From NCBI RefSeq assembly GCF_014851815.1, contig NZ_JACVAJ010000002.1, forward strand, positions 1,178,001 to 1,242,000: DNA of 64,000 bases. The letters are read 5' to 3'. The DNA comes from Pseudoxanthomonas sp. PXM01 (GTDB taxonomy: Bacteria; Pseudomonadota; Gammaproteobacteria; Xanthomonadales; Xanthomonadaceae). Made by a program: the position numbers and the translations under genes. A model generated the notes under the pieces. It saw only the letters and a program-made list of their open reading frames with translations, did no database searches and was not told the DNA's origin. Positions 10,684 to 37,282 of the stretch are shown piece by piece; position 1 is the first letter of the stretch, and each line of letters opens with the position of its first letter.

Positions 10684-13419
10684 ATGTCAGCCTCCCCATT
10701 GTCTGATGCCCGGCTCTACCGGTGGCGCTTTGGCAGCGTCGAGTTCGACGAGGCACGCCATGAACTGCGTGTGGCGGGACTGGCCGTCGACATCGAGCAC
10801 AAGCCGCTGCAGGTGCTCTCTGTGCTGTTGCGCCACGTGGGCGAGGTGGTGACCAAGGAGGAGCTTTTCGACCAGGTCTGGACCGGTCGGATCACCGTGG
10901 ACCACGTGCTGGCCACGGCCGTGGGCAAGTTGCGCAAGGCACTGGATGCCGCTGGCGAGGACCGGATCACCACCGTCCCGCGCGTGGGTTACCGGTTGGA
11001 AGGTCCTGTCGAGCGCGTGGCCCAGGGCCAACGGAGGGAGGCTGCGCTGACCTTCACCCCCGGGCAACCAGTACCCGGCAGGGAACACTTCCTTCTGGAG
11101 CGGCCCTTGGGTCGCACGTTGGGCAGCGAAGTCTGGCTAGCGCGCCAGCCACGCACGCGGGACAGCCGCGTCTTCAAGTTCAGCATGGGCGGCGAGCGGC
11201 TGGGTGCCATCAAGCGCGAAGCCACGCTGATGCGCGTGCTGCGGGACACACTGGGTGATCGGGACGACTTCGTCCGCGTGCTGGACTGGAATTTCGAGAA
11301 CGAGCCGTTCTTCCTGGAGTGCGAGTACGGCGGACAGGCCTTGCCGGAATGGGCCGAGGAGCACGGAGCACTGCTGGGCTGGAGCCGCGGGCGCAAGCTG
11401 GCGTTTTTCTTGCGTATCGCGGCCGCGGTCGATGCCGCACACAGCGTGGGCGTGCTGCACAAGGACATCAAGCCGGCGAACGTACTGGTTCGCACGCGGG
11501 GTGACGATGCCTTCCTGCCGTGCCTGACGGACTTCGGCAACAGCCGCCTGCTCCAGCCCGAGCGCCTGGCCGAGTTGGGCATCACCGGGATGGGCATGAC
11601 GGTCACGACGGCCCATAGCGGCGACAGTTCCGGTACGCCGTTGTACCTGGCGCCGGAACTCATTGCCGGACAATCTGCCACCGTGCGTAGCGACGTATAT
11701 GCACTGGGTGTGCTGTTGTACCAATGGCTGGCCGGCGATCTGCGACGCCCGATGGCGCCAGGCTGGGAGCGCGACATCGCGGATCCGCTTCTGGTGGAGG
11801 ACATCCGCCGCGCCACCGATGGTGACCCTGCGCAGCGCATGGGCAGCGTGGCGGAATTGGTCGAGCGGCTGTCTTCGTTGGAGCAACGCCAAGCGCTGGC
11901 AGAGGACCATGCAGCGGCGGCGGCCGCCGCCGAGCAGGTGCAGCGGGCACTGGAACATACGCGAGCCCGGAGGCCGTGGGTGATCGCCACGATCGCCGTG
12001 TTGAGCATGGGCCTGCTGGCCAGCTCGGCACTCTGGTGGCGAAGCGAGCAGCAACGCCGCACCGCGCAGATGCAGGCCGCGCGCGCGGAAGCCGTGACGC
12101 GCTTTCTGAGCGATGACCTGATCGGCGCCCTTAGCCCGGGCGGATCAGGCTTCGAGCGCGACCCCACGGTACGGCAGATGCTCGAGCAGGCGGGCAAGCC
12201 CTTGGCACAGCGATTCGACCGGGACCCTGCGGTGCGCGGCGGCATCCATGCCGCGCTGGGCGATGCCTGGCGGACGCTGGGAGATCGCGAGCGCGCTGCC
12301 CGCCATCTGCGCCAGGCCGTACAGGACTATGGCCGCGCCTTTGGTGTGGACGACGCGCAGACGCTGATCACGCGTTACGGACTGGTGCGTACGTTGGCCT
12401 ATGCCGGGACACCGGAATCGTTCGCCGAGGCGGAACGCCAGCTGGAGGAAGCAGACAGGCTGGCAGGTGGGCGACGGCTGGAGGGGGAGAACGAGGTAGC
12501 CCTCTATGCGGCCATCGCACGTGGACAGCTTCACTTCCAGCAGTTGCAGATAGAGCCCTCACTGGTGGCGCACCGGCGGGCCGATGTCCTGCAGCGGGCG
12601 CTGCGACCCGACGACGCCTCGATGGCGGCGTTGATCCGCTCCAACATCGCCGATGGCCTGCTCAGGTCCGACAAGGCTGAGGAGGCCATTCCGTTGCTCC
12701 AGAGCCTGCTGGCCGATCCCCTGCTTCGCCCCGAGCGCATTGGCGAGTCCACGGTTGCGGGCTATCGCGTGATGCTGGCACGCGCACTGCGCAATCTGGG
12801 GCGTTACGCCGAGGCCCTGCCCATCGCCGAGGCGGCTGCGACAACGACCGAGCGCATCCTCGGCCCCGACGACTACACCACCTTGGTCCAGATGTCGCTG
12901 GTGGCGAGCATCCATGACTATGCCGGCGATTGCGCCAAGGCGCTGCCGATCGCGCGCACGGTTCGCCAGCGCATGGCCAAGCGGTATGGCGAGGAGCGCC
13001 AGGCCACGCTGATCGAAACGGGCAATCTAGGATTCAAGGAGTACGACTGCGGTGATCGCGACGCAGGCTTGAACTACCTGCACCTGGCCGAAAGCGGGCT
13101 TCGCAAGCACTTCGGCCAAGACAACGTCGCTGCCCACAGCTTCCGATATGCCTTGGCAGGCAACTTGGCCGAACAGGGGCGATATGGCGAGGCGCTGGAG
13201 ATGGTCGAAGGGTTGAGCGTGCCGGCACTGACGGCCGGGGACTCCACGCCAGGTTGGGAGCATCGCCTGCAAGCACTGCGTGGCCAGATCCTCATGCAGT
13301 CCGGACGCGAGGTAGAGGGCCGCCCCCTTCTGACTTCCGCGATCACTTCATTGGCACAGCTAGAAGTCGCCGATGAGAAACAGCTCAAGACATGGCAGGC
13401 GTTGCTTGGATCCCCGTAG
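10684..13419 (+). CDS. winged-helix / Ser-Thr kinase / TPR transmembrane receptor
   Basis: A 911-residue fusion. Residues ~12-105 form an OmpR/CadC-like winged helix. Residues ~137-400 form a Hanks-type kinase with Lys165 as ATP lysine candidate, catalytic loop HKDIKPANVL (259-268, HKD instead of HRD), DFG at 283 and APEL near 323. An Ala-rich stretch leads to one membrane helix (WVIATIAVLSMGLLASSALWW, trimmed ~431-451), and the rest (~460-911) is tetratricopeptide-type helical repeats, presumably periplasmic. This combines DNA binding, phosphorylation and a sensor in one chain. It faces the envelope cluster across a shared promoter region, so regulation of that cluster is a reasonable inference. 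Families of transmembrane kinase-TPR proteins are common in Xanthomonadaceae; the N-terminal DNA-binding domain is the unusual part. Confidence 0.88.
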   Translation: MSASPLSDARLYRWRFGSVEFDEARHELRVAGLAVDIEHKPLQVLSVLLRHVGEVVTKEELFDQVWTGRITVDHVLATAVGKLRKALDAAGEDRITTVPRVGYRLEGPVERVAQGQRREAALTFTPGQPVPGREHFLLERPLGRTLGSEVWLARQPRTRDSRVFKFSMGGERLGAIKREATLMRVLRDTLGDRDDFVRVLDWNFENEPFFLECEYGGQALPEWAEEHGALLGWSRGRKLAFFLRIAAAVDAAHSVGVLHKDIKPANVLVRTRGDDAFLPCLTDFGNSRLLQPERLAELGITGMGMTVTTAHSGDSSGTPLYLAPELIAGQSATVRSDVYALGVLLYQWLAGDLRRPMAPGWERDIADPLLVEDIRRATDGDPAQRMGSVAELVERLSSLEQRQALAEDHAAAAAAAEQVQRALEHTRARRPWVIATIAVLSMGLLASSALWWRSEQQRRTAQMQAARAEAVTRFLSDDLIGALSPGGSGFERDPTVRQMLEQAGKPLAQRFDRDPAVRGGIHAALGDAWRTLGDRERAARHLRQAVQDYGRAFGVDDAQTLITRYGLVRTLAYAGTPESFAEAERQLEEADRLAGGRRLEGENEVALYAAIARGQLHFQQLQIEPSLVAHRRADVLQRALRPDDASMAALIRSNIADGLLRSDKAEEAIPLLQSLLADPLLRPERIGESTVAGYRVMLARALRNLGRYAEALPIAEAAATTTERILGPDDYTTLVQMSLVASIHDYAGDCAKALPIARTVRQRMAKRYGEERQATLIETGNLGFKEYDCGDRDAGLNYLHLAESGLRKHFGQDNVAAHSFRYALAGNLAEQGRYGEALEMVEGLSVPALTAGDSTPGWEHRLQALRGQILMQSGREVEGRPLLTSAITSLAQLEVADEKQLKTWQALLGSP

Positions 13420-15181: not shown

Positions 15182-15487
15182 ATGAAGAACAATGACACTG
15201 TCACGCGCGAAGCCAACGAGGACATCGAGGCGCGGGCCCGCCGATACACCGATGCTCTGCTCACCCTCAAGCCTAAGGCCCAGCACCAGAAAACTCAGCT
15301 CTTTACTCTGCTGTACCCCACCATCGTCGAACTGCTGAGCAAGCACGTCAGCCAGAAGGCCATTCTGGACATGCTCCAGACCCAAGGACTGAAGCTGCAT
15401 CCAAGTCGCTTCAAGGCACTGATGGCTGCTCACGCCGCGAGCGCGAACAACGAGGCAAGTGATCCGACTGAGAAGAGCAAGGCATGA
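15182..15487 (+). CDS. small element-encoded protein, possible relaxosome accessory
   Basis: 101 residues, starting MKNNDTVTREANED behind a strong AGGAGGG. Charged N-terminus, then a helical domain (LLSKHVSQKAILDMLQTQG) ending with a motif SRFKALM that resembles a short helix-turn-helix or ribbon protein of plasmid mobilization modules. Its stop overlaps the next ATG (ATGA). No exact family is claimed. The position between AlpA and DUF3987 genes is typical for genes of integrative mobilizable elements. Confidence 0.6.
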   Translation: MKNNDTVTREANEDIEARARRYTDALLTLKPKAQHQKTQLFTLLYPTIVELLSKHVSQKAILDMLQTQGLKLHPSRFKALMAAHAASANNEASDPTEKSKA

Positions 15488-16920
15488 ACATGATGACTTA
15501 CCCTCCTCCCTATCCCGTTGAAGCCATGTATGCCCTCGTACGCGACGCCGCCAAGGAGGTTATCAACCACACTCAAGCGCCCCCCGCTCTCGTAGGCTGC
15601 TCCATGCTGGCTTCGATGGCAGTAGCCAGCCAAGCCAATGCAGACGTTCTGTTGCCCACCGGGCTCATCCGCCCGACGTGCCTGTACATGCTGGTGCTGG
15701 GGGACTCTAGCATCGGCAAAACTACGGTGGATGCGAGGGTCGGAGCTCCGCTCCGCGCGCACGACCAGAAGCGCGCTGAAGATTGCAGGCAAGCACTGGC
15801 TCGCTACGAGGCCGACATGCGCATATGGCGAACTGCCGAAAGATCCTTGGATGCAAAGCTTAAAGAAGCACTGAAAAGCCATGCGAACCCGCAGCAGTAT
15901 CATAGCGAGTTGATGTCAGTCGCGCTAAGCGAGCCTCGCAAGCCAGTACCACAGTACTTGCTACACCAGAGCATTACCGAGAGCGCCCTATTCGAAGCCT
16001 TGGACGGCGATGGAAAGTCGATTGCAATCGTGAGTGACGAGGGTGAGCTCGTTCTCAGAGGTGGCGCAATGGACAAGATGGGAATTCTAAACAAGGCATG
16101 GGATGGTGAAAGCACCATGCCCAGAGCGCGTAAGGACCTTCATCTGCGCCCGACGAATCCCCGGATTACCGTTAGCATTATGGTCCAAGAAGAGGTCTTC
16201 GATCAGTTCTGGAAGAAGCGCGGCGCCGTCGCCGACGGCTCAGGTCATCTCGCCCGCTATCTGGTTGCCTGGCCTACATCCAACGTGGGCTTCAGGCGCA
16301 TGATGACGGAGGACCATATCTGGGCGCATCTTCCAGCGTTCCATCAACGCATCAGCGAGCTTCTCGATGAGGCTGATGCGCGCCAAGCCAATGGTCGCCC
16401 TCGCATCCTCCTCGAGTTCAGCGCTGAGGCCAAAGAACTTTGGCTGAACGTACACAACAAGCTGGAACCACAACTTCGCCCTGGCGGTGAGTTCTTCAGC
16501 ATCCGGAAGTCTGCGGCCAAGATGCTGGAGATCACCGGCCGTGTCGCTGCGATCTTTCATTTCTTCAATTCCCTTGAAGGAAAGATAAGCCAGGAGACAC
16601 TTCAGCGCGCGCTGGACGTGGTTCAATGGCATCTGTGGGAGTTTCGGCGCGTGTTCGGTGAACGGCACGAGGTTCCGCTGCTGGAGCAGGACAAGCAACG
16701 GGTGGGCGAGTTCCTGCATCGTCGGTACTGGTGTCAGGGTCGAGCCACAGCCCCATGGAACGAAGTCCGGAAGTGCAATCCGGTCCGAGATCAGGCCCGC
16801 TTTGAGAGGACTGTATTGGAGCTCCAGAGCGCAGGGGTGATCCATATCGAGCATCTCGCTAGAGGCAAGCGGCTCCTACATCTCAACCCCGCAGCCTTTG
16901 CTCATGACCACATCGTGTGA
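15484..16920 (+). CDS. DUF3987 P-loop protein
   Basis: 478 residues matching the DUF3987 (YfjI-like) family found in prophages and integrative elements. A Walker A motif GDSSIGKTT lies near residue 73, followed by a long charged helical insert and a Walker-B-like strand SIAIVSDEGE near 180. The C-terminal ~100 residues form a winged-helix-like tail. These proteins are usually linked to replication or primase functions of mobile elements. Coupled by overlap to the preceding gene; a rho-independent terminator follows directly. Length is normal for the family. Confidence 0.85.
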   Translation: MNMMTYPPPYPVEAMYALVRDAAKEVINHTQAPPALVGCSMLASMAVASQANADVLLPTGLIRPTCLYMLVLGDSSIGKTTVDARVGAPLRAHDQKRAEDCRQALARYEADMRIWRTAERSLDAKLKEALKSHANPQQYHSELMSVALSEPRKPVPQYLLHQSITESALFEALDGDGKSIAIVSDEGELVLRGGAMDKMGILNKAWDGESTMPRARKDLHLRPTNPRITVSIMVQEEVFDQFWKKRGAVADGSGHLARYLVAWPTSNVGFRRMMTEDHIWAHLPAFHQRISELLDEADARQANGRPRILLEFSAEAKELWLNVHNKLEPQLRPGGEFFSIRKSAAKMLEITGRVAAIFHFFNSLEGKISQETLQRALDVVQWHLWEFRRVFGERHEVPLLEQDKQRVGEFLHRRYWCQGRATAPWNEVRKCNPVRDQARFERTVLELQSAGVIHIEHLARGKRLLHLNPAAFAHDHIV

Positions 16921-17025: not shown

Positions 17026-17811
17026 TCATTCTCCCCAGACTTGGCCATCCGGTTCGCGAGAACGAGAATGCCCCTCGCTGGGCGAGTCTACCCGCGGCTT
17101 AGGCCAGCCCGAACCACGGGCAGCTGTGTACTCAGCTCTTTCTGTGCCTGACATCCTACGGACCCGACCCGGCCCCAAGTGACGCTCAGGCGCACGGAGC
17201 GCGCCTTGCTCCCGCAGACTCCTGTGATCGACGCGTACGACATAGCCTTGCCGCGCAAGATGTGCATTCTGGATGTCGGCCGCCAGCTTGCGCATGGCGA
17301 TCAAGTTGTCACGCACCTGCATCCGCGTGCGACCTCCGCTCATCTTCCTGCAACCACCTTGCCATGGGTAGACGGCGTTGAAGCGCGCGAATGTCTGCTC
17401 GGGCGAGCGCTCGTACCCATCCGACATTCGGTCGGAGTACATGAGGTGGATGTGCAGATTCTGCTCGCCCTCCAGAGATGACCGCGGCGAGTGCACCGCG
17501 TACTGATAGGGTCGTGACCCGACAAGCTGGTGGACCAGGTCCGACACCAGTGGAAGCAATGGAGGTCCCGTCAACTCGTTCGGGAGCGCGATGATCAGCT
17601 CACGGTACGTCGCGCCATTGGCGCGCTCATGCTCATCAGCCGCCCGCCAGAACACTTCCGGGTTCCCACCCGTCCAAGCTGGAAGGTTGCCGTGTCCTGA
17701 AAGGACCAAGTCCCCTCTGGCGGCGTGGTATCCCTGCCGCGCCACATATCTGGAGTGGCTCAGCGCACATCCCTTGCCGCCACTCTTAATCTGAAAGCTA
17801 AAGCTCGCCAT
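17026..17811 (-). CDS. MobA/MobL-family relaxase
   Basis: A 261-residue conjugative relaxase of the MobA/MobL (MOB_Q-like) family. The N-terminus MASFSFQIKSGGKGCALSHSRYVAR carries the nucleophile-side motif region (shown trimmed: candidate Tyr in SRYVARQGYHA), and the metal-binding motif HIHLMYSDR holds the His pair near residue 122-124. It would nick and covalently bind the transferred strand at oriT. The protein is short: there is no helicase or primase domain, and the C-terminal ~80 residues are basic and disordered. It is convergent with the DUF3987 gene and reads away from the oriT candidate just upstream, the standard arrangement. Confidence 0.85.
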   Translation of the reverse strand: MASFSFQIKSGGKGCALSHSRYVARQGYHAARGDLVLSGHGNLPAWTGGNPEVFWRAADEHERANGATYRELIIALPNELTGPPLLPLVSDLVHQLVGSRPYQYAVHSPRSSLEGEQNLHIHLMYSDRMSDGYERSPEQTFARFNAVYPWQGGCRKMSGGRTRMQVRDNLIAMRKLAADIQNAHLARQGYVVRVDHRSLREQGALRAPERHLGPGRVRRMSGTERAEYTAARGSGWPKPRVDSPSEGHSRSREPDGQVWGE

Positions 17812-17911
17812 CTGTGCACTACCCTTTCCGGTCCAGACAAAAGAATGCCGACGAGGCTTCTCTCATCGGCGTGTTTGAACAGGATCGTTAAGCGGCAATC
17901 TATGCTGATGC

Positions 17912-17946
17912 GAAGAAACGGTAAGTGCGCGTGGGGCTTTGCCCCC
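17912..17946 (+). other. candidate oriT, IncQ/MOB_Q type
   Basis: The sequence GAAGAAACGGTAAGTGCGC (17912-17930) closely resembles the oriT core of IncQ plasmids (an inverted repeat arm ending GAAACCGG followed by TAAATGCGCCC or TAAGTGCGCCC). It is followed by a small GGGGC-TTT-GCCCC hairpin (17933-17945). It lies ~100 bases upstream of the MobA/MobL gene start, as expected. The rest of the 17812-18183 gap holds no gene I can support. Confidence 0.6.
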
Positions 17947-18183
17947 CCCTACTGATACCCACTACCAGCTTCCGCTTCCTTCAGCTGATCTACCAACACT
18001 CAACATGCCTGTCTCATATAGGTAGGACTGATGACGTAAAGATTTACACGACCGGTCTGGGATCATTCCGCGGCGAGGCTGCAGTAACGACAAGGGCGCC
18101 TGGGCGGAGCATGTACTCGGAGCCGGCGTTGGATGATGCCGATATGCTCTGGAAACAAAAAAAGGGAAATTGGATCGCACATG

Positions 18184-20118: not shown

Positions 20119-20631
20119 CTAGACCCACCCCCGAGCAGCCATCGAGACCGCTCTATCAGCAGTCACCACGAAGTGGTCCAGCAACCGAACCTCCACCAGC
20201 CCCAAGGCATTCTTGAGTTGGGCTGTGACCGCCCGATCTGCCGCTGAAGGTTCGGCATAACCGCTGGGGTGGTTGTGGGCCACCATGACGGCCGCCGCAT
20301 TCAGCGCCAGCGCGCGCTGGACCACCACGCGCGGATACACCTGTGCCCCGTCCACCGAGCCGGAGAACATGCGCTCCACGGCGATGAGGCGGTGGCGGCT
20401 ATCGAGGAACGCTACCTCGAAGTGCTCCCGCATCTCGCCACCCAGCCGCAACCGGAAGAACGATTCGCACGCGGATACTTCCCCGAACGACTGGCCGGGG
20501 CTGCCAGCCCGTCGTTCGAGAATCCGCAACGCACGCGCTATCGCCTGGTCCTCTCGCCTTCGACTGGCTTCCTCTGACGGGATCATTCCGGAATCGGTGA
20601 GTGAGCTTGTTCCCGCTCTGGCCAACGTCAT
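20119..20631 (-). CDS. radC: RadC-family JAB-domain protein
   Basis: About 170 residues covering the JAB/MPN domain of RadC (DUF2466) without the N-terminal helix-hairpin-helix region of chromosomal RadC. The metal site HNHPSGYAEPSAAD is complete (His-x-His-x10-Asp with the conserved Ser). RadC-like proteins of this short form are standard passengers of integrative elements; the biochemical role is unresolved despite the old DNA-repair name. The ATG at 20631 overlaps the stop of the DUF932 gene (ATGA), so both are co-translated. Confidence 0.85.
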   Translation of the reverse strand: MTLARAGTSSLTDSGMIPSEEASRRREDQAIARALRILERRAGSPGQSFGEVSACESFFRLRLGGEMREHFEVAFLDSRHRLIAVERMFSGSVDGAQVYPRVVVQRALALNAAAVMVAHNHPSGYAEPSAADRAVTAQLKNALGLVEVRLLDHFVVTADRAVSMAARGWV

Positions 20632-21581
20632 GCCGCCCACCTCGTCACCTCCTCCCACGCGCGCTGCTTGATGCGAGCGCCCTCCCCGAACCAGGCCGCG
20701 TCCCGGCGATGATCATCGCTCCGCGCCCGCCGATGATGGTCGACGTACTCGGTGATGCCGTTGAGCAACCCCCACGCCGTACGCCGGCTTGAAGACAGTT
20801 GGGATCCCTGGCCTCCTCCCTCGATCAGCGCGCGCACGTTGGCTACCGCATGCTCGTTGACCACGGGGACGGCATTGGGAACGGCATAGGTCAGGATGCG
20901 ACGAAGCAGGGCCTCGGCCGAATCCGGATCTACAGGCCGTTCGCATAGTGCCTTCATCTGCTCAACGAAGCCGTCCCAGACCGAGACGGTGATCCCGAGC
21001 TGGCGCTTGACCCGCTCCGGATCGAACTGGCTGCGGTGCGGGACCTTGATGGCACCCTCCCCTTGGCCCACGGCAATCGCCAGTGTGTTGTTGCAGACCA
21101 CGCGGACGGAGGTGAACTGGGCGGTGGTGGCCAGCGTTCCGTCGCAGGCGGTGGCCAATAGCAGGTAGCCATTCACCCGGTCCCGGCCACGAAGCGTGAC
21201 GCTCTGCCCGGTCCGGGCCAGTGCCCAGAACTTTCGGCCTTCCCGCAGAACCCCGGCGGTTTCCAGCTCGAAGCCGTTGGTGGCGGTCAGGTCCCGGTAG
21301 AACTCCAGGATCTCGCCCGGCTGTACGACTTGGAACCGCGTGGAGACCACAGCCAGCGGCTTCTTGGTGTCGGAGCGATACAAGACCTTGTTCTGGGGGA
21401 ACGCATTGATGGCCCCGATGTTGTGGCTGCCGGTGACATATCGGACCTCGGCTTCTTCGATCTGCCAGTCCATGCCGGCTTGCTGCTTCCAGACCTCCAT
21501 GGGCTGCTGACGGGGGAGCTTGTTGCCCAGGCCATGCCAGGGCTTGTGGCCGGCGTAGGCCATGGTTTCAACCAAGTGCAT
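20628..21581 (-). CDS. DUF932 phage/plasmid-like protein
   Basis: 317 residues from the ATG at 21581 (MHLVETMAYAGHKPWHGLG, behind AAGGAAAC). It matches DUF932 / the phage-plasmid-related TIGR03299 family: PWHGLG near the start, VVSTRFQVVQPGE, and the central VNGYLLLATACDGTLA with CNNTLA. These proteins are frequent in conjugative elements and prophages next to RadC, as here; function unknown. The frame continues upstream to 21683 but the added residues lack similarity and would cross a strong hairpin. Confidence 0.85.
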   Translation of the reverse strand: MHLVETMAYAGHKPWHGLGNKLPRQQPMEVWKQQAGMDWQIEEAEVRYVTGSHNIGAINAFPQNKVLYRSDTKKPLAVVSTRFQVVQPGEILEFYRDLTATNGFELETAGVLREGRKFWALARTGQSVTLRGRDRVNGYLLLATACDGTLATTAQFTSVRVVCNNTLAIAVGQGEGAIKVPHRSQFDPERVKRQLGITVSVWDGFVEQMKALCERPVDPDSAEALLRRILTYAVPNAVPVVNEHAVANVRALIEGGGQGSQLSSSRRTAWGLLNGITEYVDHHRRARSDDHRRDAAWFGEGARIKQRAWEEVTRWAA

Positions 21582-21613
21582 TGTCGTTTCCTTGTTAGTG
21601 GTCGGCATAAACG

Positions 21614-21642
21614 CACAAGGCCCGGACGAGCCGGGCCTTGTG
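21614..21642 (-). other. strong hairpin in the DUF932 leader
   Basis: CACAAGGCCCGG and CCGGGCCTTGTG form a perfect 12-bp stem with a 5-base loop (arms 21614-21625, 21631-21642). It lies between the small membrane ORF and the DUF932 start. There is no T-run after it on the minus strand, so it may be a processing or partial-termination signal, not a full terminator. Confidence 0.5.
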
Positions 21643-21663
21643 AGATATGCGTTGGAGGACGGA

Positions 21664-21789
21664 TCAGCGATCGAAGAAGTCACCGCAGTTGCCGCAGGTA
21701 GCCGTAGCCGTGCATTTGACGATGCCAGCCAGAACGGCGGTGGCGACCACCATGATGCAGTAGACCAACTCGACCTTGTTTTTCATCAT
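21664..21789 (-). CDS. small single-span membrane protein (~41 aa)
   Basis: A tiny ORF beginning at ATG 21789 or 21786. Residues: MKNKVELVYCIMVVATAVLA as one membrane span, then a short tail with CTATATCGNCGDFFDR, whose CGNC could bind metal or form a disulfide. It precedes the DUF932 gene on the same strand, with a strong hairpin between. The ribosome site is weak (GGGTATGGGT). Plausible as a small element protein; function unknown. Confidence 0.4.
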   Translation of the reverse strand: MMKNKVELVYCIMVVATAVLAGIVKCTATATCGNCGDFFDR

Positions 21790-22127: not shown

Positions 22128-22732
22128 CGTAAGCTCCCCCGTCAAGCAGACACCGCAAAAGTAGGACTTCCGGCGCGAGTGACTCGGTACTCGGCGGGCG
22201 TAAGGCCACCGAGCGAGTCATGGGGTCTGGCCTCGTTGCAGTCGATCATCCACCTGTGCGCGGCCTCGCGAACGTCTTCAAGGCGTGCGAACAGGTGTTG
22301 GTCCAGCACTTCCTCGCGGAAGGTGCGGTTGAAGCGTTCGATGTAGGCGTTCTGGTTCGGCTTGCCGGGGTGGAGGTACTGGATGGCCACGCCATCAGCT
22401 TTGGTCCATTGCGTGAAAGGCTCGCCCAGGAACTCCGGGCCGTTATCCGAGCGCAGGACCTGTGGCAGTCCGTTATCGCGCTTGAGCTGCTCGAAGATGC
22501 GAACCAGACGCGTCGAGGTGAGTGAGGTGTCCACCTCGATGTGCAGCGCCTCGCGGTTGAAGTCGTCGACCACGTTGAAGGTGCGGAAGCGCCGCCGACC
22601 GCAGGCCAGCGCATCGGACATGAAATCGACCAACCAAACCGTATCAGGCAGACTTGGCACTTAGAGCGCCACGCGCTCGCGCTTGGGTAAACGCCGCTTT
22701 TATCGGGTGTCTATCGGGTGGGGGAGCTTACG
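22128..22732 (-). mobile_element. internally deleted IS3-family element
   Basis: CGTAAGCTCCCCC at 22128-22140 is exactly inverted at 22720-22732, and the similarity continues inward (both ends read ...AGACACC at the same distance), giving ~27-bp imperfect terminal repeats. Between them is only the C-terminal part of an IS3-type OrfB. At ~605 bases it is half the normal IS3 size (~1.2 kb); orfA and the first part of orfB are missing. No target-site duplication is visible. Confidence 0.75.
22142..22660 (-). pseudogene. IS3-family transposase OrfB, C-terminal part
   Basis: The rve/DDE integrase core of an IS3-family OrfB: DTVWLVDFMSDAL (first Asp), VLRSDNGPEFLG (second Asp), and GKPNQNAYIERFNRTFREEV (Glu), then ARPHDSLGGLTPAEY. 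The catalytic triad is present, but the N-terminal helix-turn-helix region and OrfA are deleted. Upstream in the same frame, after RRLPKRERVAL, a TAA replaces a sense codon that intact relatives would be expected to have (CAA likely). The remnant therefore cannot mobilize itself. Confidence 0.85.
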
Positions 22733-23057: not shown

Positions 23058-24296
23058 CTAGAAAAGCGAGCTCACTACACGCTTCTGCCGCCTCTTTACC
23101 AGCCCAAGGAAGCCGCTGACGTCCATCAACCAGCTCTTCTGGTCCGCGCTATATGTTTCGTGCAAGCCCCTCGGCAGCACCAGTTGCAGCCGCTTCTGCT
23201 GCATTTCGCGCGTTTGATTTGGGCTGATCGCTGTTTCAAGGGTAAGCAGGTGCTTCTCTTCGATGCGATCGGCCTCTGATAGCACCTGCCTCCACCGGTC
23301 CTTGCAGGTGCTCTTCACCCCCAGCATTGTCAGATCGAGTGGACTGAATGCGGGGTTGTGATACTCGCCTTCTCCTGGGAAGAGGAAATCCGGCTTGGCA
23401 CGGTTCTCTGTAATAGCGGCACGTGCGAAGCGAATTTCATGAGCAACGAAAATCTCTTGCACATGGTGCTCGAACGCTTGACCAACCCGGCTCTTCCTTC
23501 GATTTTGCACAGACAGCGAGAACTGAATAAAGCTGTCGATGTCGTCGCGCTCAAATCCTTCCGCGAGTCGATCGCCAATCAGATGACGTTCGAGCGTCCG
23601 AAACAGGATCTCCTCGCGCTCCATCCATGCAAGAAGCGCCACGTCGGGAGCCTCCCGGCAATCGATGTCATCGAGAGTTCCGCGAGCGAATGCAGAGAAT
23701 TCTGCCGTCTTCGGGAAAACGCGACCGAAGCGCCCAATCATCATGTCGAGGAAGCTGTCGCTTGGTGGAGCAACTTCGATACCGATGCTTTCCAGAATGT
23801 AGGTGGCCGCAAATCCGATCCTGTCCTGCTCATTCTCTAGCTCGGCGCGAACGGAGAATCGCGGGTGATCCTCGCCAGAAAAGCCAAATAGCCATTCAAC
23901 CTGGCTCGCAGCGCTTGAGCCGTTCTCGGCAATGATCACGAGCAAAGAGCCATTTCGCTGCCGGGCAATTACGAGAAGATCGCCTTCGCTTGCCAGCTGC
24001 GACACCGCCGTCGTTGGAAAATAGAACCGATACTCGGCGGTACGATGCGTTTGATTGGCGCGCGCGTTGTAGAGGGTCAGGAAAGCGTCTTCAAGCACGG
24101 GCTCGGGGTCGTCATCACACAGGTAGATGAAACGAGTGTCCAGGCGGGTGCGTTCCGGTGGCTTGCCCATGAAATCCAGCATTGCGCGTATCGCGTTGTA
24201 CTCATGCTGGTTGGAGCGCGTGTCATTGGCTTCGACTGCTGACAGTCGCTTGATTGCCACGCCATCGAAGTATTCGCTGAGATAGCCCCGTTTCAT
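23058..24296 (-). CDS. EcoRII-type restriction endonuclease
   Basis: 412 residues, close to the EcoRII length (404). The C-terminal ~150 residues are the EcoRII catalytic domain with a PD-(D/E)XK core: AKPDFLFPGEGEYHN with its Asp, and LGVKSTCKDRWRQVLSEADR with the conserved Lys and the CKDRWRQ signature. The N-terminal ~200 residues are the effector DNA-binding domain. EcoRII cuts CCWGG as a two-site type IIE enzyme. The ATG at 24296 overlaps the vsr stop (ATGA), giving coupled translation, and the gene is last in the operon so that methylase is made first. Its A/T content is higher than the neighbouring chromosome. Confidence 0.9.
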   Translation of the reverse strand: MKRGYLSEYFDGVAIKRLSAVEANDTRSNQHEYNAIRAMLDFMGKPPERTRLDTRFIYLCDDDPEPVLEDAFLTLYNARANQTHRTAEYRFYFPTTAVSQLASEGDLLVIARQRNGSLLVIIAENGSSAASQVEWLFGFSGEDHPRFSVRAELENEQDRIGFAATYILESIGIEVAPPSDSFLDMMIGRFGRVFPKTAEFSAFARGTLDDIDCREAPDVALLAWMEREEILFRTLERHLIGDRLAEGFERDDIDSFIQFSLSVQNRRKSRVGQAFEHHVQEIFVAHEIRFARAAITENRAKPDFLFPGEGEYHNPAFSPLDLTMLGVKSTCKDRWRQVLSEADRIEEKHLLTLETAISPNQTREMQQKRLQLVLPRGLHETYSADQKSWLMDVSGFLGLVKRRQKRVVSSLF

Positions 24297-24739
24297 CCCC
24301 TGACCTCCATAGCGTCCTGCTGACTGTCCAACCAATCCCCCACGCGAGCGGCGATATGCTCAGGGGCTCCGGGCTTGCCACGCATGGCGCACTCCCAAAC
24401 TGTCGCTACGCGCCAGCCCGCTTCTCGCAAAAGTGCTTCGGCACGGACGTCATTACGTCGGTTCGTCTCAATCTTGGCACGCCAGAATTCGGTCCGCGTG
24501 CCGGGCTCCCGATAAAGAGGGCAGTCATGGCCATGCCAGAAGCATCCATGAACAAACACCACCGCGCGCCATTTCGGAAAGACGAGATCAGGCTTGCCAG
24601 GCAGTTCTTTGCGGTGCAGGCGAAAGCGTAAGCCTCGCGCATGCAGCGCACGGCGAAGGAGCATTTCCGGCTTGGTATTGCGCGCACGAATGCCGGACAT
24701 CATGCGACTGCGGACATCTGGGGAGACGATGTCCGCCAC
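24293..24739 (-). CDS. vsr: very short patch repair endonuclease Vsr
   Basis: 148 residues with all Vsr hallmarks: DIVSPDVRSRMMSGIRARN start, GKPDLVFPKWRAVVFVHGCF core (catalytic Asp in PDLVF), HGCFWHGHDC and YREPGTRTEFW. Vsr nicks 5' of the T in T:G mismatches that arise by deamination of 5-methylcytosine in CCWGG sites, so it is the natural partner of a Dcm-type methylase. It begins 5 bases after the methylase stop. Length matches E. coli Vsr (156). Confidence 0.95.
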   Translation of the reverse strand: MADIVSPDVRSRMMSGIRARNTKPEMLLRRALHARGLRFRLHRKELPGKPDLVFPKWRAVVFVHGCFWHGHDCPLYREPGTRTEFWRAKIETNRRNDVRAEALLREAGWRVATVWECAMRGKPGAPEHIAARVGDWLDSQQDAMEVRG

Positions 24740-24744
24740 GTCGC

Positions 24745-26025
24745 TTAGGCCGCGATCCCCAATCTCGGCTGGATCACGCCACCCGCTTCCCGCTCTTTAA
24801 GCTCCATGATCCGTGGCGCCATGATCTTGGCCACTGCCTCGATCACAGGAACCACAACGGAGTTGCCAAACTGGCGGTAAGCCTGCGTGTCGCTCACAGG
24901 AATCTCAAAATCATCCGGAAAGCCCATGAGCCTTGCGCATTCGCGAGGCGTCAGACGGCGCGGTCGCTTACCCTTGCCCCGATGAATGAGGATTTCGCTC
25001 CCATCCTTGTAATAGCGCGCAGACAGGGTGCGCGTGGAGTGGTCAATGCCTGGCCGAACCAGTCCAAATCCAAAGCCATTCCCGGCAGCTTGGTGCTTGG
25101 CCGCATAAGCTTGCAAATACTCCCAGAGCTTAGGTGTGAGCGTGTATTTCTTACTCACCTGCGCCTTCTCGCCAGTAGTGTAGTGCCGCTCACACTCCTC
25201 ACTGCCATCCTCCGGGTGGAGGATGCTGGCAATGTCAGGACCGACTTCCGGTAGACGCAGATCCTTGAACGTGAAATCAGTGTCCTCGCGGAAGCCCACG
25301 ATGATGATGCGCTCGCGATGCTGTGGCACGAAGCGCTTACCGTCGATGACTTGATGAAAGATCTTGTAGCCGAGTTCAACTTCGAGAACATGCTTGATCA
25401 CGCGGAACGTGTTCCCGCCATCATGGCTCACCAGGTTCTTCACGTTTTCGAGCAAAAAAGCCTTCGGCCTCTTGGCAGCAATGATCTGCTGGATGTCGAA
25501 AAACAGCGTGCCTTGCGTTGTGCACTCAAATCCGTGAGGTCGCCCTAATGCGTTCTTTTTGCTCACTCCGGCAATAGAAAACGGCTGGCAGGGAAACCCG
25601 GCAAGCAGGACATCGTGGTCCGGAACTGAGGCCGGGTCGACCTTGGTGATATCTCCCGTGATGGCATGCTCGTCGCGGAAGTGGTTCTGGTAGGTCTGCT
25701 GGGAGAACTCGTTCCACTCGCTCGTGAACACACATCGCCCGCCGGCCCTTTCGAAACCCAGCCGGATACCGCCAATCCCGGCGAAGAGATCGATGAAGGT
25801 GAAATCTCCGGCCCCAGGATCAGAGACCCTGGGCGCCAGCAGCTCGCGCAAGCGGGCGTCGAGCATGGGCGGGAACGGCGTCTCGCCGCTGCGCCAGCGT
25901 CCGATCTGACGCTCGCTGCGCCCAAGTTGCTGGGAGAGTCCCCGTATCCCAAACCGGCCGATCGCCACTTCAAGCGTGTCGCGGCATTCCATAGTATCGA
26001 GGTCTCTGGGAAGAATTTCGGACAT
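24745..26025 (-). CDS. dcm: Dcm / M.EcoRII-type cytosine-5 DNA methyltransferase
   Basis: 426 residues with the ordered C5-methylase motifs: I FIDLFAGIGGIRLGF, IV with the catalytic Cys in GFPCQPFSIAG, VI LLENVKNL, VIII QHRERIIIVG, IX RRLTPRECARLMGFPDDF and X YRQFGNSVVVPVIEAV. The pairing with Vsr and EcoRII makes CCWGG the expected target. The N-terminal ~75 residues (GIRGLSQQLGRSERQIGRWR) look like a helix-turn-helix, as in M.EcoRII/M.SsoII-type enzymes that repress their own promoter. It is the first gene of the leftward operon and is divergent from the DISARM-like operon. ATG 26025 is preferred as it includes this domain. Confidence 0.93.
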   Translation of the reverse strand: MSEILPRDLDTMECRDTLEVAIGRFGIRGLSQQLGRSERQIGRWRSGETPFPPMLDARLRELLAPRVSDPGAGDFTFIDLFAGIGGIRLGFERAGGRCVFTSEWNEFSQQTYQNHFRDEHAITGDITKVDPASVPDHDVLLAGFPCQPFSIAGVSKKNALGRPHGFECTTQGTLFFDIQQIIAAKRPKAFLLENVKNLVSHDGGNTFRVIKHVLEVELGYKIFHQVIDGKRFVPQHRERIIIVGFREDTDFTFKDLRLPEVGPDIASILHPEDGSEECERHYTTGEKAQVSKKYTLTPKLWEYLQAYAAKHQAAGNGFGFGLVRPGIDHSTRTLSARYYKDGSEILIHRGKGKRPRRLTPRECARLMGFPDDFEIPVSDTQAYRQFGNSVVVPVIEAVAKIMAPRIMELKEREAGGVIQPRLGIAA

Positions 26026-26173
26026 TTTGGCTGACTGGATTCCCGCCGGTCAATTCGGCGTCTCGTGGAGGAGTGCGACCATGACAGCCACTCGTCGCCA
26101 GACTTGAGATTGGGTGCTGGGAGGATCGTCTCCGACCAGCTACGCTCGACTGGCGCGACTAGGGAGGGGATGC
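26026..26173. promoter_or_regulatory. divergent promoter region of both defence operons
   Basis: 148 bases separate the methylase ATG (leftward) from the helicase GTG (rightward), so both promoters must lie here. On the plus strand GGAGGAG precedes ATG 26081, which opens an 8-codon frame ending at 26107; this could be a leader peptide or a chance frame. No sure -35/-10 pair was assigned. The methylase N-terminal HTH is a candidate for binding this region. Confidence 0.45.
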
Positions 26174-28222
26174 GTGTCAGGGGAAGAAGTAGAGGTTCGC
26201 GTTCGCGAGAACGGCAGGGTCATAGCCACCATCCAGCGGCCACTGCGGGAACTCGACGGGAAGCCGGCGATCACCTTCCGCAAGCGGCTCTGGCTGCTGA
26301 ACGGCAACTCCATCGAGATCGGTGGGACCGCTGCAACGCCTGTCCCGCCGCCAGCTCCGCCTCAGCCGCCTGCCGAGGCCGAGGAGGTGTTCGAGCGGGA
26401 GGTTCGGGTGCGCGCCCCGCCCCCGCCCCCGCTGCCACCGGAGACCGAGGACCTTGGCGCGAACGCGCCGACCTGGCAGGATGACCCGGTCGCCGAGCCG
26501 CCGGATGCTCGTCTCATCGTTGACGCCGGCCCTGGCACCGGCAAGACGCATGCGGCCTGCGCGCGCGTAGCGGCGATGGTCGGTAGCGGCATCCCCGCCT
26601 CCCGCATCTGCCTGGTGAGCTTCACCCGCACCGCCGTCGTCGAGATCCGAAACCGCATTGCGCGTGCACTGGAAGAGCCAGGCGACGCCGCGAGCGTTCG
26701 CATCATCACGCTCGACGCATTCGCGTGGGCCGTCCACTCGGGCTTCATGAAAGAAGCGCGCCTCACCGGCAGCTACGAAGACAACATCAACGCCGCATTG
26801 AAACTGCTACGAGAGGATGAGGATGTGCGCGACGATCTGGCGCGCATCGAGCACCTGATCGTTGATGAGGCGCAGGACATCGTCGGTCCCCGCGCCGATC
26901 TCGTCTTGGCGATGGTGGACGGTCTCAACGCCGACAGCGGGATCACGGTCTTCGCCGACCGCGCCCAGGCGATCTACGCTTTTGCCGAAGGCGAAGATGA
27001 CTCCAAGGGCACGAACTTGCTTGACGCGCTGGCGGCGCGTGGCTTTCGCCAGATGCAGTTGACCGAAGTGCATCGCACGGCGGACCCGAACCTCCTCGCT
27101 ATCTTCACTGTGCTGCGCCGCGACCTCCTGTCTGGCCGCAAAGCCAACATCGAAAAGCACGTCAAGAGCGAGATTCGGCGACTGGCCCATGCGGATGCCG
27201 GCGAAGTGGCAAATCTGAAACTCGATACGCTGCCAGATGATGCGCTCGTTCTCATGCGCAACCGTATGGACGTCCTAATCGCGTCGAGCCATGCCGGGCT
27301 TCTGCCGCACCGCCTGCGGCTGTCCGGAATGCCCATCTGCGTGCGGTCTTGGGTCGCACAGATGTTCTGGGACCACACCCAGCGGCGGATCACCCGCGAC
27401 GATTTTGAGAAGCGCTGGCACGAGCGCGACATCCAGGCACCGTTCGACAGTGCTGAGGCGTGGAGCCGCTGCGTGGAAGTGGCCGGAGACTCCGTTCATG
27501 TCGTTGATCTCCATGCGCTGAGAAGAGTGCTGGCGCGCACTAACCCGCCGATGCAGTTCTGCACCCCCGAGTTCGGCACCGCTGGACCGATCCTTGGCAC
27601 CATCCATGCCAGCAAGGGTCGCGAAGCGCCCATTGTCTATCTCTATTTGCAGGAAACCGCGAACGCTGACGAGACGGGCGAAGAGTCGCGCGTTATGTTC
27701 GTTGGTGCTACCCGCCCGCGCGAGCGCTTGGTGGTGGGCACGACAGGCGCGCCAAGCGGAACAAAGGTCAATGGCCGCGTGTGGCGCCGCACTGGCACCT
27801 CGATCCAGGTCGAGGTGGGGCGTCCACACGATATCGAGCCGCCAGGTCTTGTGGGGCGCCCGTTCTTTGCCCGGCAGGAAGACGCCCTCACCGCGCAGGC
27901 GGCATGGGCGAATCAGCCCCGCCGCCCTCGCTTAATGTTGCGCGCGGAGTCGACCGTGGGCTGGCAGTTCACCATCAACGATGGAGAGCAGCGGCTGGGC
28001 GGGCTAAGCGAGCGCTTTCGCGCCGACGTGGGAAAGATTGCCTGGCATCTCAACAAGTCGATCAGTTGGCTCGCCTACGGCCGCTCGATCGGTCTTCGCA
28101 CGATGGTCGTTGCCCCCGACAGCCCTCACCTCGAAACCATGCTCGAACCGTGGAAGTCGAGCGGCTTTCTCTATGCGCCGCTTCTGACCTCGTTCTCTCC
28201 CACCAAACCTAAGTCCCGCTGA
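26174..28222 (+). CDS. UvrD-like superfamily 1 helicase, first gene of DISARM-like operon
   Basis: 682 residues from GTG 26174 (AGGGAGGGG five bases upstream); the frame stays open to 26114. The N-terminal ~70 residues form a small beta-rich domain, then a Pro-rich linker (VPPPAPPQPPAEAEE, APPPPPLPPE). SF1A helicase motifs follow: I DAGPGTGKTHAA (~117), II VDEAQD (~230), III FADRAQAIYAF, V GTIHASKGREAPIVYL and VI VMFVGATRPRERLVVG. The C-terminal ~140 residues are a separate domain. The stop TGA overlaps the next ATG by one base. UvrD-like helicases of this kind are frequent in defence loci; they are not part of the described DISARM core. Confidence 0.85.
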   Translation: MSGEEVEVRVRENGRVIATIQRPLRELDGKPAITFRKRLWLLNGNSIEIGGTAATPVPPPAPPQPPAEAEEVFEREVRVRAPPPPPLPPETEDLGANAPTWQDDPVAEPPDARLIVDAGPGTGKTHAACARVAAMVGSGIPASRICLVSFTRTAVVEIRNRIARALEEPGDAASVRIITLDAFAWAVHSGFMKEARLTGSYEDNINAALKLLREDEDVRDDLARIEHLIVDEAQDIVGPRADLVLAMVDGLNADSGITVFADRAQAIYAFAEGEDDSKGTNLLDALAARGFRQMQLTEVHRTADPNLLAIFTVLRRDLLSGRKANIEKHVKSEIRRLAHADAGEVANLKLDTLPDDALVLMRNRMDVLIASSHAGLLPHRLRLSGMPICVRSWVAQMFWDHTQRRITRDDFEKRWHERDIQAPFDSAEAWSRCVEVAGDSVHVVDLHALRRVLARTNPPMQFCTPEFGTAGPILGTIHASKGREAPIVYLYLQETANADETGEESRVMFVGATRPRERLVVGTTGAPSGTKVNGRVWRRTGTSIQVEVGRPHDIEPPGLVGRPFFARQEDALTAQAAWANQPRRPRLMLRAESTVGWQFTINDGEQRLGGLSERFRADVGKIAWHLNKSISWLAYGRSIGLRTMVVAPDSPHLETMLEPWKSSGFLYAPLLTSFSPTKPKSR

Positions 28223-31200
28223 TGTCCGCCCGCGACGCACTCATTGAACGCCTTGCCATTGACCTGATTGGCCCGTTTACGCCTGACGAAACTGTTGACG
28301 CCAAGCCATCCGACATCTACCTCACCGGCATCCTGTGGCCGCAGAACCTCGTGCTCCCGCCCGAGCAGGACGAGCGCCTTGCGGTGGCAGGCGGGGACGG
28401 CGATAGCAACGAAGAGAGCGACGAGTCATCCCAGCCGCCCGCGGCGCAGATGCGACGCCCTTCAACCGCCGGAATTTCCTTCGCCTGCGCATCCGGCGAC
28501 GACGCCGCGCCGCGCGTGCTCGTGGAGATCGCTTGCGGGCGCTACCAGCCGCATCCGGAAGAGAAAGACAAGTGGAACCGGGTGGACATCGCGCTCCCGC
28601 CGATCGAGATCGAACTCACCCCGGGCAATCACGACATTCTCTTGGCGGAGGTCGACGTCGCAGGCGTTCGCCTGAATGTGCGGGTTCTGCCTTTCGAGGC
28701 CGGCGTGCTGGCCACCATCACGCTGGTCAACGGCTCGACGCCTGATCGCAGCCGCGAGGCGATCGAGACCTCAACGCTCTTCCAGACAAGTCTCGCGATC
28801 CGCGCTACGAGTGGCTCCCGCCTTATCACGCGCCCGAGCCGCAAGGCCGCCATCGACGCCGATGACCGCTCGAACGCGCTCCTCTTCCGACGCTCTCGTG
28901 AATACGCCACCGGCCACACCTGCTCGGCGCAGTGGGACGCGGGCACCGAAGGGCGCGAGATCGACGCCGTGCGGACGGCTTGGATCCCCGAGGCCACTTC
29001 CCCCGCTGTCAGCCCCGATGGCTCGCGCCACTTCGCAGGCCTAGCAAAGTCCGGCTCGCTGGCAGCAGCCACTCTTGCGCAGAGCACGGATGGCGAACTG
29101 GTTGGCCATCTTGGCGCGCTCTGCGACGCCTACGCCACGTGGCTGGACGATCAGCGCGCGACTCTTAAAGACATTCCAGCGCCTCTTGTGGAAACCGCCA
29201 ACGCGCATCTTGATGAGATCGCGCATGTGCTTGGGCGGATGCGCCGCGGCGTCGATCGGCTGTTGTCAGATGGCGCGATGGCGGAAGCGTTTCGGCTTGC
29301 CAACCTCGCGATGGAGACGCAGCGGGTCTGGGGCGGCTCGTCGCTCGTCTGGCGCCCCTTCCAGCTTGGATTCCTGCTCCTTTCGATGGAGTCCACCCTC
29401 GATCCCCAGCACGCCGATCGGAGCGTGATGGATCTCCTTTGGTTCCCAACCGGCGGCGGCAAGACCGAGGCCTATCTGGGCCTCGTGGCCATGGTGGCTT
29501 TCCATCGCCGCCTTGTTGGCGCGCGGCCCGAGGACGGCGATGGCGTCGCCTGCATTATGCGCTACACGCTGCGCCTCCTCACCACGCAGCAGTTCATCCG
29601 CGCCGCGGCCACGATCTGCGCATGCGAGGCGATCCGGAGGGGCACAGTCAACTCTGGACGGAAGCTGGTGCTTGGAAAAGCACCCTTCTCGCTCGGCCTC
29701 TGGGTCGGAGGGGACGCAACACCGAACTCCCGAAAGATCGCGTTTGATAACAAAGGTGATGCATTCAAGCCCCAGGCCCGCCAGCTCACCAAATGCCCGT
29801 GCTGCAACGCCGACCTCGACTATGTCCAGCGGCGCGACACTGACCCGGTCGTCGTCGAATGCCGCACTGCTGCATGCGCGCTATCCAAGGCGCCGCTTCC
29901 GGTGTTCACGGTGGACGAGGACATCTATCAGCAGCGGCCGACGATGCTGCTGGGAACCGTCGACAAGTTCGCGCAGATCGTCCGAAACCCGGCGTCGCGC
30001 GCGCTCTTTGGTATTGGCACGCCCATGCAGCCGCAGCTCATCCTCCAAGACGAGCTCCACCTGATCGCAGGCCCGCTGGGCACGCTCACCGGTCTTTACG
30101 AGACAGCCGTCGACATCATCCTCTCCGACAACGGCAGCCCACCCAAGATCGTGGGCTCGACGGCCACGATCCGCCGCGCGGGCGAGCAGGTGCGCGCCCT
30201 CTTCGATCGCGATACCTGCCAGTTCCCCCCACCAGGCCTAGATGCCCAGGATTCGGGCTTCGCCGTGCAAGACACTGAGCTCGCGGGCAGGCGCTACATC
30301 GGCCTTACCACGGCTGGCCGGTCTGCCAAGTTCACGCTACAAGCCGTCTCTGCCTCGCTCATGCATGGCGCGCTGCACGCACTGAACCCTGAGGAGCGCG
30401 ACCCTTACTGGACGCTCCTCGCCTACTTCAACTCGCTTCGCGAGCTGGGCGGCGCGCTCGTGCTGATGCAAGACGACGTTTCAGACACCATCGCCCTTCT
30501 CGCGACGCGCGCAGGCACGCAGCCGCGCCAGCTGTCGGAGATCGAGGAGCTCACCTCTCGCCGCACGCAGGCAGAGATCCGCGACATGCTCGACAAGCTC
30601 GCCGTGCGCGTGGATCAGCCCGGCGCCGTGGATGTCGTGCTCGCCACCAACATGGTGAGCGTGGGCGTCGACATCCCGCGTCTCGGCCTAATGCTCGTGA
30701 ATGGCCAGCCGAAGACGATGGCTGAATACATCCAGGCCACGAGCCGCGTAGGCCGCGGCAAGGTCGAGGGACTCGTAGTTGCACTCCTCAACAATGCCAA
30801 GCCCCGCGACCGCTCGCATTACGAGACATTTAGCACCTGGCACTCGATGCTGTATCGCTTCGTTGAGGCCACGAGCGCAACGCCCTTTGCCTCGCGTGCG
30901 CGCGACCGGGCGCTCCATGCCGTCCTCGTTGCACTCGTGCGCCACCTGATCCCCGAGATGCTCGAAGAGCCTGCGTGGTCGGACAAAAGCATAGCCCGCG
31001 CCCGCCAGCTGATTGATCTGGTCGTGGCACGCGCGGGCAGGATCGACGCCGACGAAGTGGGCGTGCGCGATGAGCTGCACCGCCGCCTCGACGCATGGAT
31101 CCGCCGGGCGCCCGAGATCTACTGGAAGAAGAAGGGCTCGCGCGCCGCGCCGCTGATGCAGAGCGCCGAAGAGGCGGCGGCGCGCCGGGCCACTGGCCGG

Positions 31201-34746: not shown

Positions 34747-34964
34747 CCGCGCCGGATTGCTAGCTCTTTCTTGGATCAGGCTGATGGACAGAGGCATCGA
34801 GAAGCGCCGCATAGCCGGAGAAGCATGGTTTTCACGAGTATGCAGGCCAAGGTTGCCTTACAAGACGACACCATCTTCGCAGCGGCTAGCTCCCTGCGAG
34901 GTCGGCACACAGATCATGTTTTCCGTGAGCTTAAAATTGTCGCAAATAAATCGAAGGACTGGTC

Positions 34965-36387: not shown

Positions 36388-36395
36388 GAACGTCT
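36112..36395 (-). pseudogene. membrane-protein fragment, cation-efflux-like
   Basis: A ~91-residue open frame with two membrane-like segments. The text FLVGVAGLFDIAVL, TPYFDGADGVASLAVALLV and FVPMVRGSVDLSLADE follows the pattern of transmembrane helices 5-6 of cation-diffusion-facilitator transporters (small residue, ...yFDgxxSlxxgllL...). A stop codon lies just upstream in frame, at the junction with the DUF3800 fragment, and the rest of such a transporter is absent. A Pro/Ala tail ends the frame. The assignment is tentative. Confidence 0.3.
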
Positions 36396-37219: not shown

Positions 37220-37282
37220 TCGGTCCAGGCACACAGATCAGCCGTACCCTGACAACGACTCAAGCCCTTACCCTCCAAGTTT

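Follow-up and report, generated by a model that had tools for sequence, protein, structure and literature searches.

Mobilizable plasmids of the IncQ group carry an origin of transfer (oriT) recognised by a MobA-type relaxase. Here, the question is whether a relaxase gene on the chromosome of Pseudoxanthomonas sp. PXM01 is served by such an origin and, if so, what the DNA between the two does. A first-pass annotation of the 64,000-nucleotide stretch analysed here (the window) had placed an IncQ-like oriT next to the gene. We read the site as the oriT of a chromosomal, probably mobilizable island, a split MOBQ oriT lying within an attenuated leader of the relaxase gene, and give this reading a probability of about 0.68.

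Relaxase and candidate oriT

The following features of the window set the question:
17026–17811, minus strand: MobA/MobL (MOBQ) relaxase of 261 amino acids with little besides the relaxase domain, called from a profile match and active-site residues
17915–17930, plus strand: oriT core, GAAACGGTAAGTGCGC, 0 mismatches; nick position by analogy with RSF1010
17933–17945, plus strand: GC hairpin (GGGGC-TTT-GCCCC) 3′ of the core, of a kind that few relatives have

The relaxase matched PF03389 (MobA_MobL; E value, 2.4e-19; 70.5 bits; cut-off, 26.7), which bears out the annotation of a MobA/MobL gene on a chromosome, and its sequence matched that of the R1162 MobA structure (PDB 2ns6; E value, 2.3e-22). 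Residues Y22, H107, H120, and H122 were invariant in 20 sequences (the window protein and 19 relatives) and are the counterparts of Y25, H112, H120, and H122, the catalytic residues of R1162 MobA as given in the available part of PMC6856555. The motif II glutamate, E71, was kept in at least 90% of these 20 sequences; the second glutamate of that motif (E76 of R1162) is isoleucine in the window relaxase. The score against the NCBIfam MobQ equivalog NF041496 (55.9 bits; cut-off, 200) makes the protein a relation of this narrow family and not a member. Judged by domain and active site, the enzyme is a MOBQ relaxase. It was 92% like the copy in another genome of the set (G284) and matched a relaxase of a 3.1-kb Escherichia coli plasmid typed as MOBQ (44.8% over 99% of the query). 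A search for relatives in viral contigs gave 44 candidate stretches, none of which was confirmed, and a single relaxase match was found in phages (30.5%).

The RSF1010/R1162-type core that had been annotated is present without a mismatch, and the distance to the gene, put at about 100 bases, measured 104 bases from core start to relaxase ATG. In the excerpted text of PMC4814116, nic of RSF1010 is TAAGTGCG/CCCTCCC; by analogy with RSF1010 TAAGTGCG/C, the predicted nick would fall between 17929 and 17930. The bases that follow TGCGC in the window are GTGGGG. A loose scan allowing up to 3 mismatches returned 2 matches in the window against 0.46 expected, the second of them with 3 mismatches; this count is weak proof, since 8 of 100 shuffles gave at least 2. 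DNA of 17800–18100 had no match when compared with plasmids.

Motif survey and relatives of the locus

We searched 297 genomes of the family with a degenerate form of the core, GAAASGKTAAGTGCGC, which gave 12 matches in 12 genomes, and none for the reversed control. Eleven of the 12 sit 94 to 107 bp from MobA/MobL relaxases that had been found independently (22 of the 297 genomes have a relaxase match at an E value of ≤1e-10). The twelfth, in genome G086 (locus L136), lies near a contig end that bears an apparent insertion sequence (IS) end; the contig with the G086 relaxase opens with the inverted counterpart of that end, and the contig ends also bear a transposase-like frame. The G086 leader is thus apparently split by one IS, between oriT core and terminator (see below), and all 12 matches of this clade motif are tied to a relaxase, one of them through the apparent break. 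The two parts of that leader (L010/L041 and L136) terminate two contigs. The longer form of the motif is required, since the shorter GGTAAGTGCGC occurred 4 times in the window's own genome, once at the relaxase, and once in the reversed control.

Relatives of the locus came from two sources, confirmed loci (the best 80 of 94) and whole genomes (7 more), and these 87 were classified as class A (52 loci), class B (29), or without a core (6). The six coreless loci carry only 109 to 211 nt upstream because the contig ends there; all others carry 330 nt. Whether the motif is kept among relatives of the relaxase was the check that the first-pass annotation had named: a recognisable core was present in 81 of the 81 loci with 330 nt upstream, by core and class patterns that were written after the sequences had been seen. 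On these sequence comparisons, the position of the core next to the relaxase is not due to chance.

The two classes are also parted in the relaxase tree, in which a branch with support of 100/99 separates 27 class B proteins (plus 4 unclassified) from 48 of class A (plus 2 unclassified), out of 81 different proteins. Class A proteins have 230 to 265 amino acids and class B proteins 231 to 513. Members of class A, to which the window locus belongs, were found in Xanthomonadales, Burkholderiales, and certain other Proteobacteria, with some loci in single-contig genomes (G083, G105, G150, and G237). Class B would be plasmid-like, since 28 of its 29 loci lie on contigs shorter than 24 kb; four plasmid records (L141 to L144) bear its compact form. 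The class B set was not thinned, and its 29 loci include many near-copies (19 distinct core regions; 27 distinct proteins). From class A, the near-identical leaders L030, L051, L057, L061, L085, and L089 were removed by eye, giving a set of 46 loci; L029 was removed besides for the palindrome-box test (45 leaders) and for the P1 scan, helix, fold, distance, representative, and G-U tests.

The classes differ at the core itself. A hairpin with a stem of at least 6 bp stands directly at the core in 27/29 class B loci versus 2/52 in class A, and the window has none. The label of IncQ-like oriT therefore survives in one half: an oriT-like core, conserved and tied to a MOBQ relaxase, is there, and the adjacent hairpin is not. 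The base after TGCGC is G in 34/46 class A loci and in 0/29 of class B, where C is found in 21/29; the departure from IncQ that had been noticed (GTGGGG in place of CCCT) is real and extends through the clade. The gap from GAAA to TAAG is one base shorter in class A than in class B. The nick region TAAGTGCGC is the most conserved stretch. The GC hairpin after the nick, also annotated earlier, exists at 17933–17945, but in only 7/46 class A loci is there a perfect stem of 4 bp or more 3′ of the core, and it was dropped as a conserved feature. Four consecutive C within 32 bases were commoner (32/46).

Neighbouring genes gave a second distinction. We searched the available flanks, among the best 80 of the 94 loci, for a TraD/MobC-like accessory gene with four queries (three annotated as TraD, two of these confirmed as Pfam TraD, and one unnamed) by tblastn (E value, 1e-3). 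Such relatives were found at 29/29 class B loci versus 0/45 of class A, a zero that a diverged class A gene could escape. The three TraD queries account for 28 of the 29; the other locus, L083, was matched by the small unnamed gene of plasmid L141. Conversely, a DUF3987 relative stands beside 35/45 class A loci and 0/29 of class B (best 80 of 94 loci), and in 31 of those 35 it is convergent with the relaxase, as in the window:
15484–16920, plus strand: DUF3987 protein, convergent with the window relaxase

Leader of the relaxase gene

Three elements between the start codon and the DNA beyond the core, the chief conserved features of the locus, had been missed by the first-pass annotation, namely a terminator, a long-range stem (P1), and a copy of the core in inverted orientation that falls on the ribosome-binding region. 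They are listed here with a palindrome that lies further upstream:
17814–17829, minus strand: GGAAAGGGTAGTGCAC, imperfect inverted copy of the core, overlapping the relaxase ribosome-binding region
17847–17870, minus strand: intrinsic terminator hairpin of 9 pairs with a T-rich tail (17837–17846), between oriT core and relaxase start
17876–17883, minus strand: 3′ strand of P1, 5 bases before the terminator hairpin
18008–18016, minus strand: 5′ strand of P1, at TATGAGACAGG
18036–18047, no strand assigned: GTAAAGATTTAC palindrome, promoter- or operator-like, upstream of P1

A terminator-like hairpin with a T-run was found on the gene strand between core and start codon in 39/46 class A loci and 0/29 class B loci; controls gave 2/46 on the opposite strand of class A and 7/920 in shuffled sequences. 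In an alignment of 36 sequences the stem has 8 pairs, and for 7 of them at least one sequence carries a two-sided change that preserves pairing. G-U combinations exceed A-C in the terminator (26 versus 14), an excess like that expected of an RNA helix. The scan showed no terminator in 7/46 class A loci, of which L067, L069, and L078 seem, by their sequences, truly to have none. About 30 bases (27 to 37 in the 39 loci) separate the end of the stem from the start codon, too few to hold a usual promoter. RNAalifold, run on the alignment of the whole leader, returned only the terminator. The window leader, terminator included, folds with a z-score of −3.87 (1/200 shuffles). Further upstream, a box of the palindrome type followed by a TATG-like anchor was seen in 31/45 class A loci versus 13/900 shuffled sequences, with a pattern drawn up after the sequences had been seen.

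P1 joins a TATG-anchored upstream segment to the bases immediately ahead of the terminator. Its tests left out loci without a called terminator (38 remain) or without a TATG-like anchor (35 remain), and for the arm-swap energy test only L030 was removed among the near-copies. Over 35 loci, the mean duplex energy was −19.4 kcal/mol for a locus's own arms versus −16.4 (standard deviation, 0.5) for swapped arms, and 0/300 swaps matched the own-arm value. Scanned over 38 loci, 30 window pairs gave a peak at P1 (z, −6.7), and the signal runs inward along the antidiagonal (z, −2.9 to −4.1), which would put the core inside the folded region; two off-diagonal cells had z-scores of −2.9 and −2.3. The longest helix averaged 7.8 bp with own arms versus 6.25 bp (standard deviation, 0.21) with swapped arms (0/500) and reached at least 7 bp in 23/35 loci. 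With representatives chosen automatically at 75, 65, and 60% identity (27, 16, and 11 loci), the result was 0/500 each time. This selection superseded a covariation run with 16 representatives that had been picked by hand after helix lengths were seen. As judged from these comparisons, P1 covaries and encloses the core, at a distance from it that varies among loci. G-U did not exceed A-C in P1 (107 versus 136; strict, 21 versus 22), and a reading of P1 as an RNA-only structure was dropped; the stem may thus act in RNA or in single-stranded DNA. P1 abuts the terminator without overlap, so no antiterminator is evident.

The inverted copy of the core was examined as a possible partner of the core. 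Its 12-mer GAAAGGGTAGTG occurs once in the window's own genome, before the relaxase gene, and the reversed control also occurs once. The 11-mer GAAAGGGTAGT was found in 35 loci, some of which overlap one another, always as a single occurrence, and is lacking in 109/144. A GAAAGG-like string stands within 30 nt of the start in 28/46 class A loci. The complementarity between core and ribosome-binding arm scored −12.9 versus −8.2 for shuffled sequences (46 loci). Since 42/200 swaps reached the score of a locus's own arms, this is a match of consensus sequences only, and pairing specific to the locus was rejected. In predicted folds of 38 leaders, core-arm pairs averaged 1.4 with the upstream half of the leader and 6.7 without it; in L023, L043, L060, and L063 such pairing was strong either way. 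A refold of the nick strand as DNA, core with inverted copy, is possible in the window (z, −1.29; 17/200 shuffles as good). The far arms of class B hairpins often read AGAAAC followed by a GTGCG-like sequence, and from these the class A arrangement may be a class B palindrome that was opened by about 100 bases, with the terminator placed inside.

Proposed mechanism

In the reading that we favour, the relaxase would bind GAAACGGTAAGTGCGC and nick between TAAGTGCG and C. The strand would leave through the type IV secretion system (T4SS) of another element, 5′ end first and with the upstream half of the leader, and the relaxase gene would enter last. The oriT of class A would sit within the relaxase leader, the arms of its palindrome standing about 100 bases apart as compared with class B and the terminator between them; one arm would be the core, and the other would overlap the ribosome-binding region of the relaxase. 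Most transcription toward the relaxase would halt at the terminator (attenuation). As transcription from upstream must pass that terminator, relaxase production is proposed to be low. A point against this reading is that a sigma-70 scan of the window gave no promoter in the leader. The core could have two alternative partners, one within the leader and the other at the ribosome-binding region, the latter pairing being a possible second lock. If the leader works as proposed, the oriT would also control its own relaxase in cis, and it would show, if true, a relaxase working without the usual hairpin and accessory protein.

A further step, about which we are doubtful, makes the nick region a switching strand, paired either with the upstream half, a state that may allow expression of the gene, or with the ribosome-binding region, a state in which the gene would be off. 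Such a switch would couple nicking, transfer, and relaxase synthesis in cis through one sequence, and it could replace the missing accessory protein and favour cis action.

Chromosomal island

A kinase gene (10684–13419) precedes the block that holds the relaxase; in genomes G253, G284, and G303 the corresponding site is occupied by related DNA that also carries the relaxase. For G206 and G158, about 19 kb beyond the kinase gene was compared with the window and did not match; G304 resumes matching at window position 50444. No convincing direct repeat was found that joins 13.3–13.9 kb and 38.1–38.7 kb, and the ends of the island are not fixed. The cargo is DISARM-like (DrmA, DrmB, DrmMII, and a weak DrmC), together with Vsr and a type II restriction enzyme. 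VirB4-type and VirD4-type T4SS families had no match in the window; the genome's only matches to them (PF03135 and PF02534) lie about 8 kb apart on contig C4 (1649688–1659772) and could be a helper or belong to an unrelated secretion system.

Whether this copy still moves is a separate matter. It could be a relic, the oriT of the clade working elsewhere and this island being unable to excise, and we give that a real, if minority, chance. None of the genome's 6 matches to the tyrosine recombinase family PF00589 falls in the window, so the copy may no longer excise, and 38328–38490 matches (77%) a stretch of G253 that is directly beside a tyrosine integrase gene there, at the homologue of the right end. 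An integrase relative (one query) was found in the available flanks of 10/45 class A loci. Against this, core, relaxase frame, and leader are intact, the protein is 92% like the G284 copy, and an integrase could act in trans. A relic here would be compatible with the split-oriT reading as the best explanation for the clade.

Several smaller observations concern the island and its site. The end of the kinase/TPR regulator gene is a shared island place in Pseudoxanthomonas (G253, G284, and G303), and L110, L111, L117, L121, L125, L127, and L128 are the relatives' loci for it; G284 seemingly has the kinase/TPR gene at two places, each time as two overlapping or abutting pieces. The defence block of the window spans 23058–38308 (restriction endonuclease, Vsr, Dcm/DrmMII, UvrD-like helicase, DrmA, DrmB, and a phospholipase D [PLD] protein, the weak DrmC). 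An integrase-core frame of IS3 type (22142–22660; 172 amino acids; rve_3) is apparently part of an IS. A pair of RadC and DUF932/TIGR03299 genes (20119–21683) recurs in the neighbourhood of several related relaxase loci, on one flank of the relaxase or the other.

Other readings of the leader

Two further explanations keep the structure of the leader and change its use. The leader could be an independent, trans-acting small RNA (sRNA) that ends at the terminator, like sgm-sRNA of the island SGI1, with the relaxase made by read-through only. The locus does hold a structured, terminator-ended unit around the oriT, and SGI1 offers a precedent in an essential sRNA between oriT and mpsA (PMC9299015, in excerpt). 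We consider this unlikely: the sigma-70 scan gave no promoter in the window leader, Rfam searches yielded no hit above cut-off for the window and nothing but tRNAs for 11 relatives, and the SGI1 oriT lies outside the functional sRNA domain in the text available from PMC9299015, whereas here the core is central. Weak Rfam matches, far below the cut-offs, were to microRNA or sRNA families and were set aside.

The conserved block could instead be an operator or leader that serves control of the relaxase only, with an autoregulatory core that is not, or is no longer, a nick site. Core, inverted copy, and terminator all lie within 160 bases of the start codon, and the compact hairpin of IncQ is absent, both as such a block would have it. 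Yet the most conserved part is the nick region TAAGTGCGC itself, and the relaxase keeps an invariant active site that control without cutting would not need, and we hold this explanation to be quite improbable.

Chance likeness to the IncQ core, an obvious worry for one 16-base match picked by eye in 64 kb, is scarcely credible beside 12 matches, at relaxases, versus 0 for the reversed control in 297 genomes and a core in 81/81 relatives.

Comparison with known systems

The MobA protein of RSF1010 is much longer than the window relaxase, which has only 261 amino acids, and is accompanied by MobB and MobC; R1162 MobA can act at cryptic chromosomal sites. The window shares with IncQ1 plasmids (RSF1010/R1162) a MobA-related relaxase and the TAAGTGCGC core after a GAGAAAC-like sequence, as described in part of PMC4814116. 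It differs from them, with class A, in lacking the adjacent inverted-repeat hairpin immediately 5′ of the core, in having G and not C after TGCGC, and in a GAAA-TAAG gap shorter by one base; where IncQ1 has CCCT after TGCG, the window reads CGTG.

MOBQ4 plasmids (pIGWZ12 and ColE9-J) resemble the locus, and class B, in a related relaxase domain and an oriT directly upstream of the relaxase gene (PMC6856555, partial text). Their oriT lies between divergent mobC and mobA genes, and their relaxases prefer to act in cis, according to the same excerpts (PMC6856555). In class A no divergent mobC was found (0/45 for relatives of the accessory genes, by tblastn), and class A has the terminator leader. 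Class B, with its compact hairpin, is taken here beside MOBQ4 as a further group of relatives. We did not file the window locus under IncQ1, for want of the adjacent hairpin and CCCT, or under MOBQ4, for want of a divergent mobC; the class A oriT probably works like those of IncQ1 and MOBQ4.

The nearest precedent that we met for an RNA in a mobilization module is sgm-sRNA. SGI1 likewise is a mobilizable chromosomal island with an RNA beside its oriT and a terminator-like element thought to limit the transcript, but it uses the tyrosine-recombinase-like MpsA together with MpsB and no relaxase, and its oriT is outside the RNA domain (PMC9299015, in the sections available). Canonical integrative mobilizable elements (IMEs) with a relaxase share with the locus an integrated state, a relaxase with oriT, and no T4SS match (two families searched in the window) (PMC5704250, in part); the window differs from them in that no tyrosine integrase (PF00589) was found in it. 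None with its own relaxase had been described in Proteobacteria according to the available portion of a 2017 review (PMC5704250). A literature search, conducted mostly outside subscription papers, found no description of a terminator leader of this kind.

A canonical IncQ-like site was also met in another genome (locus L024, near position 1224), where CCCTTG follows TGCG and a strong hairpin is adjacent; the site adjoins a MobA/MobL-like match inside an open frame of 1,124 amino acids.
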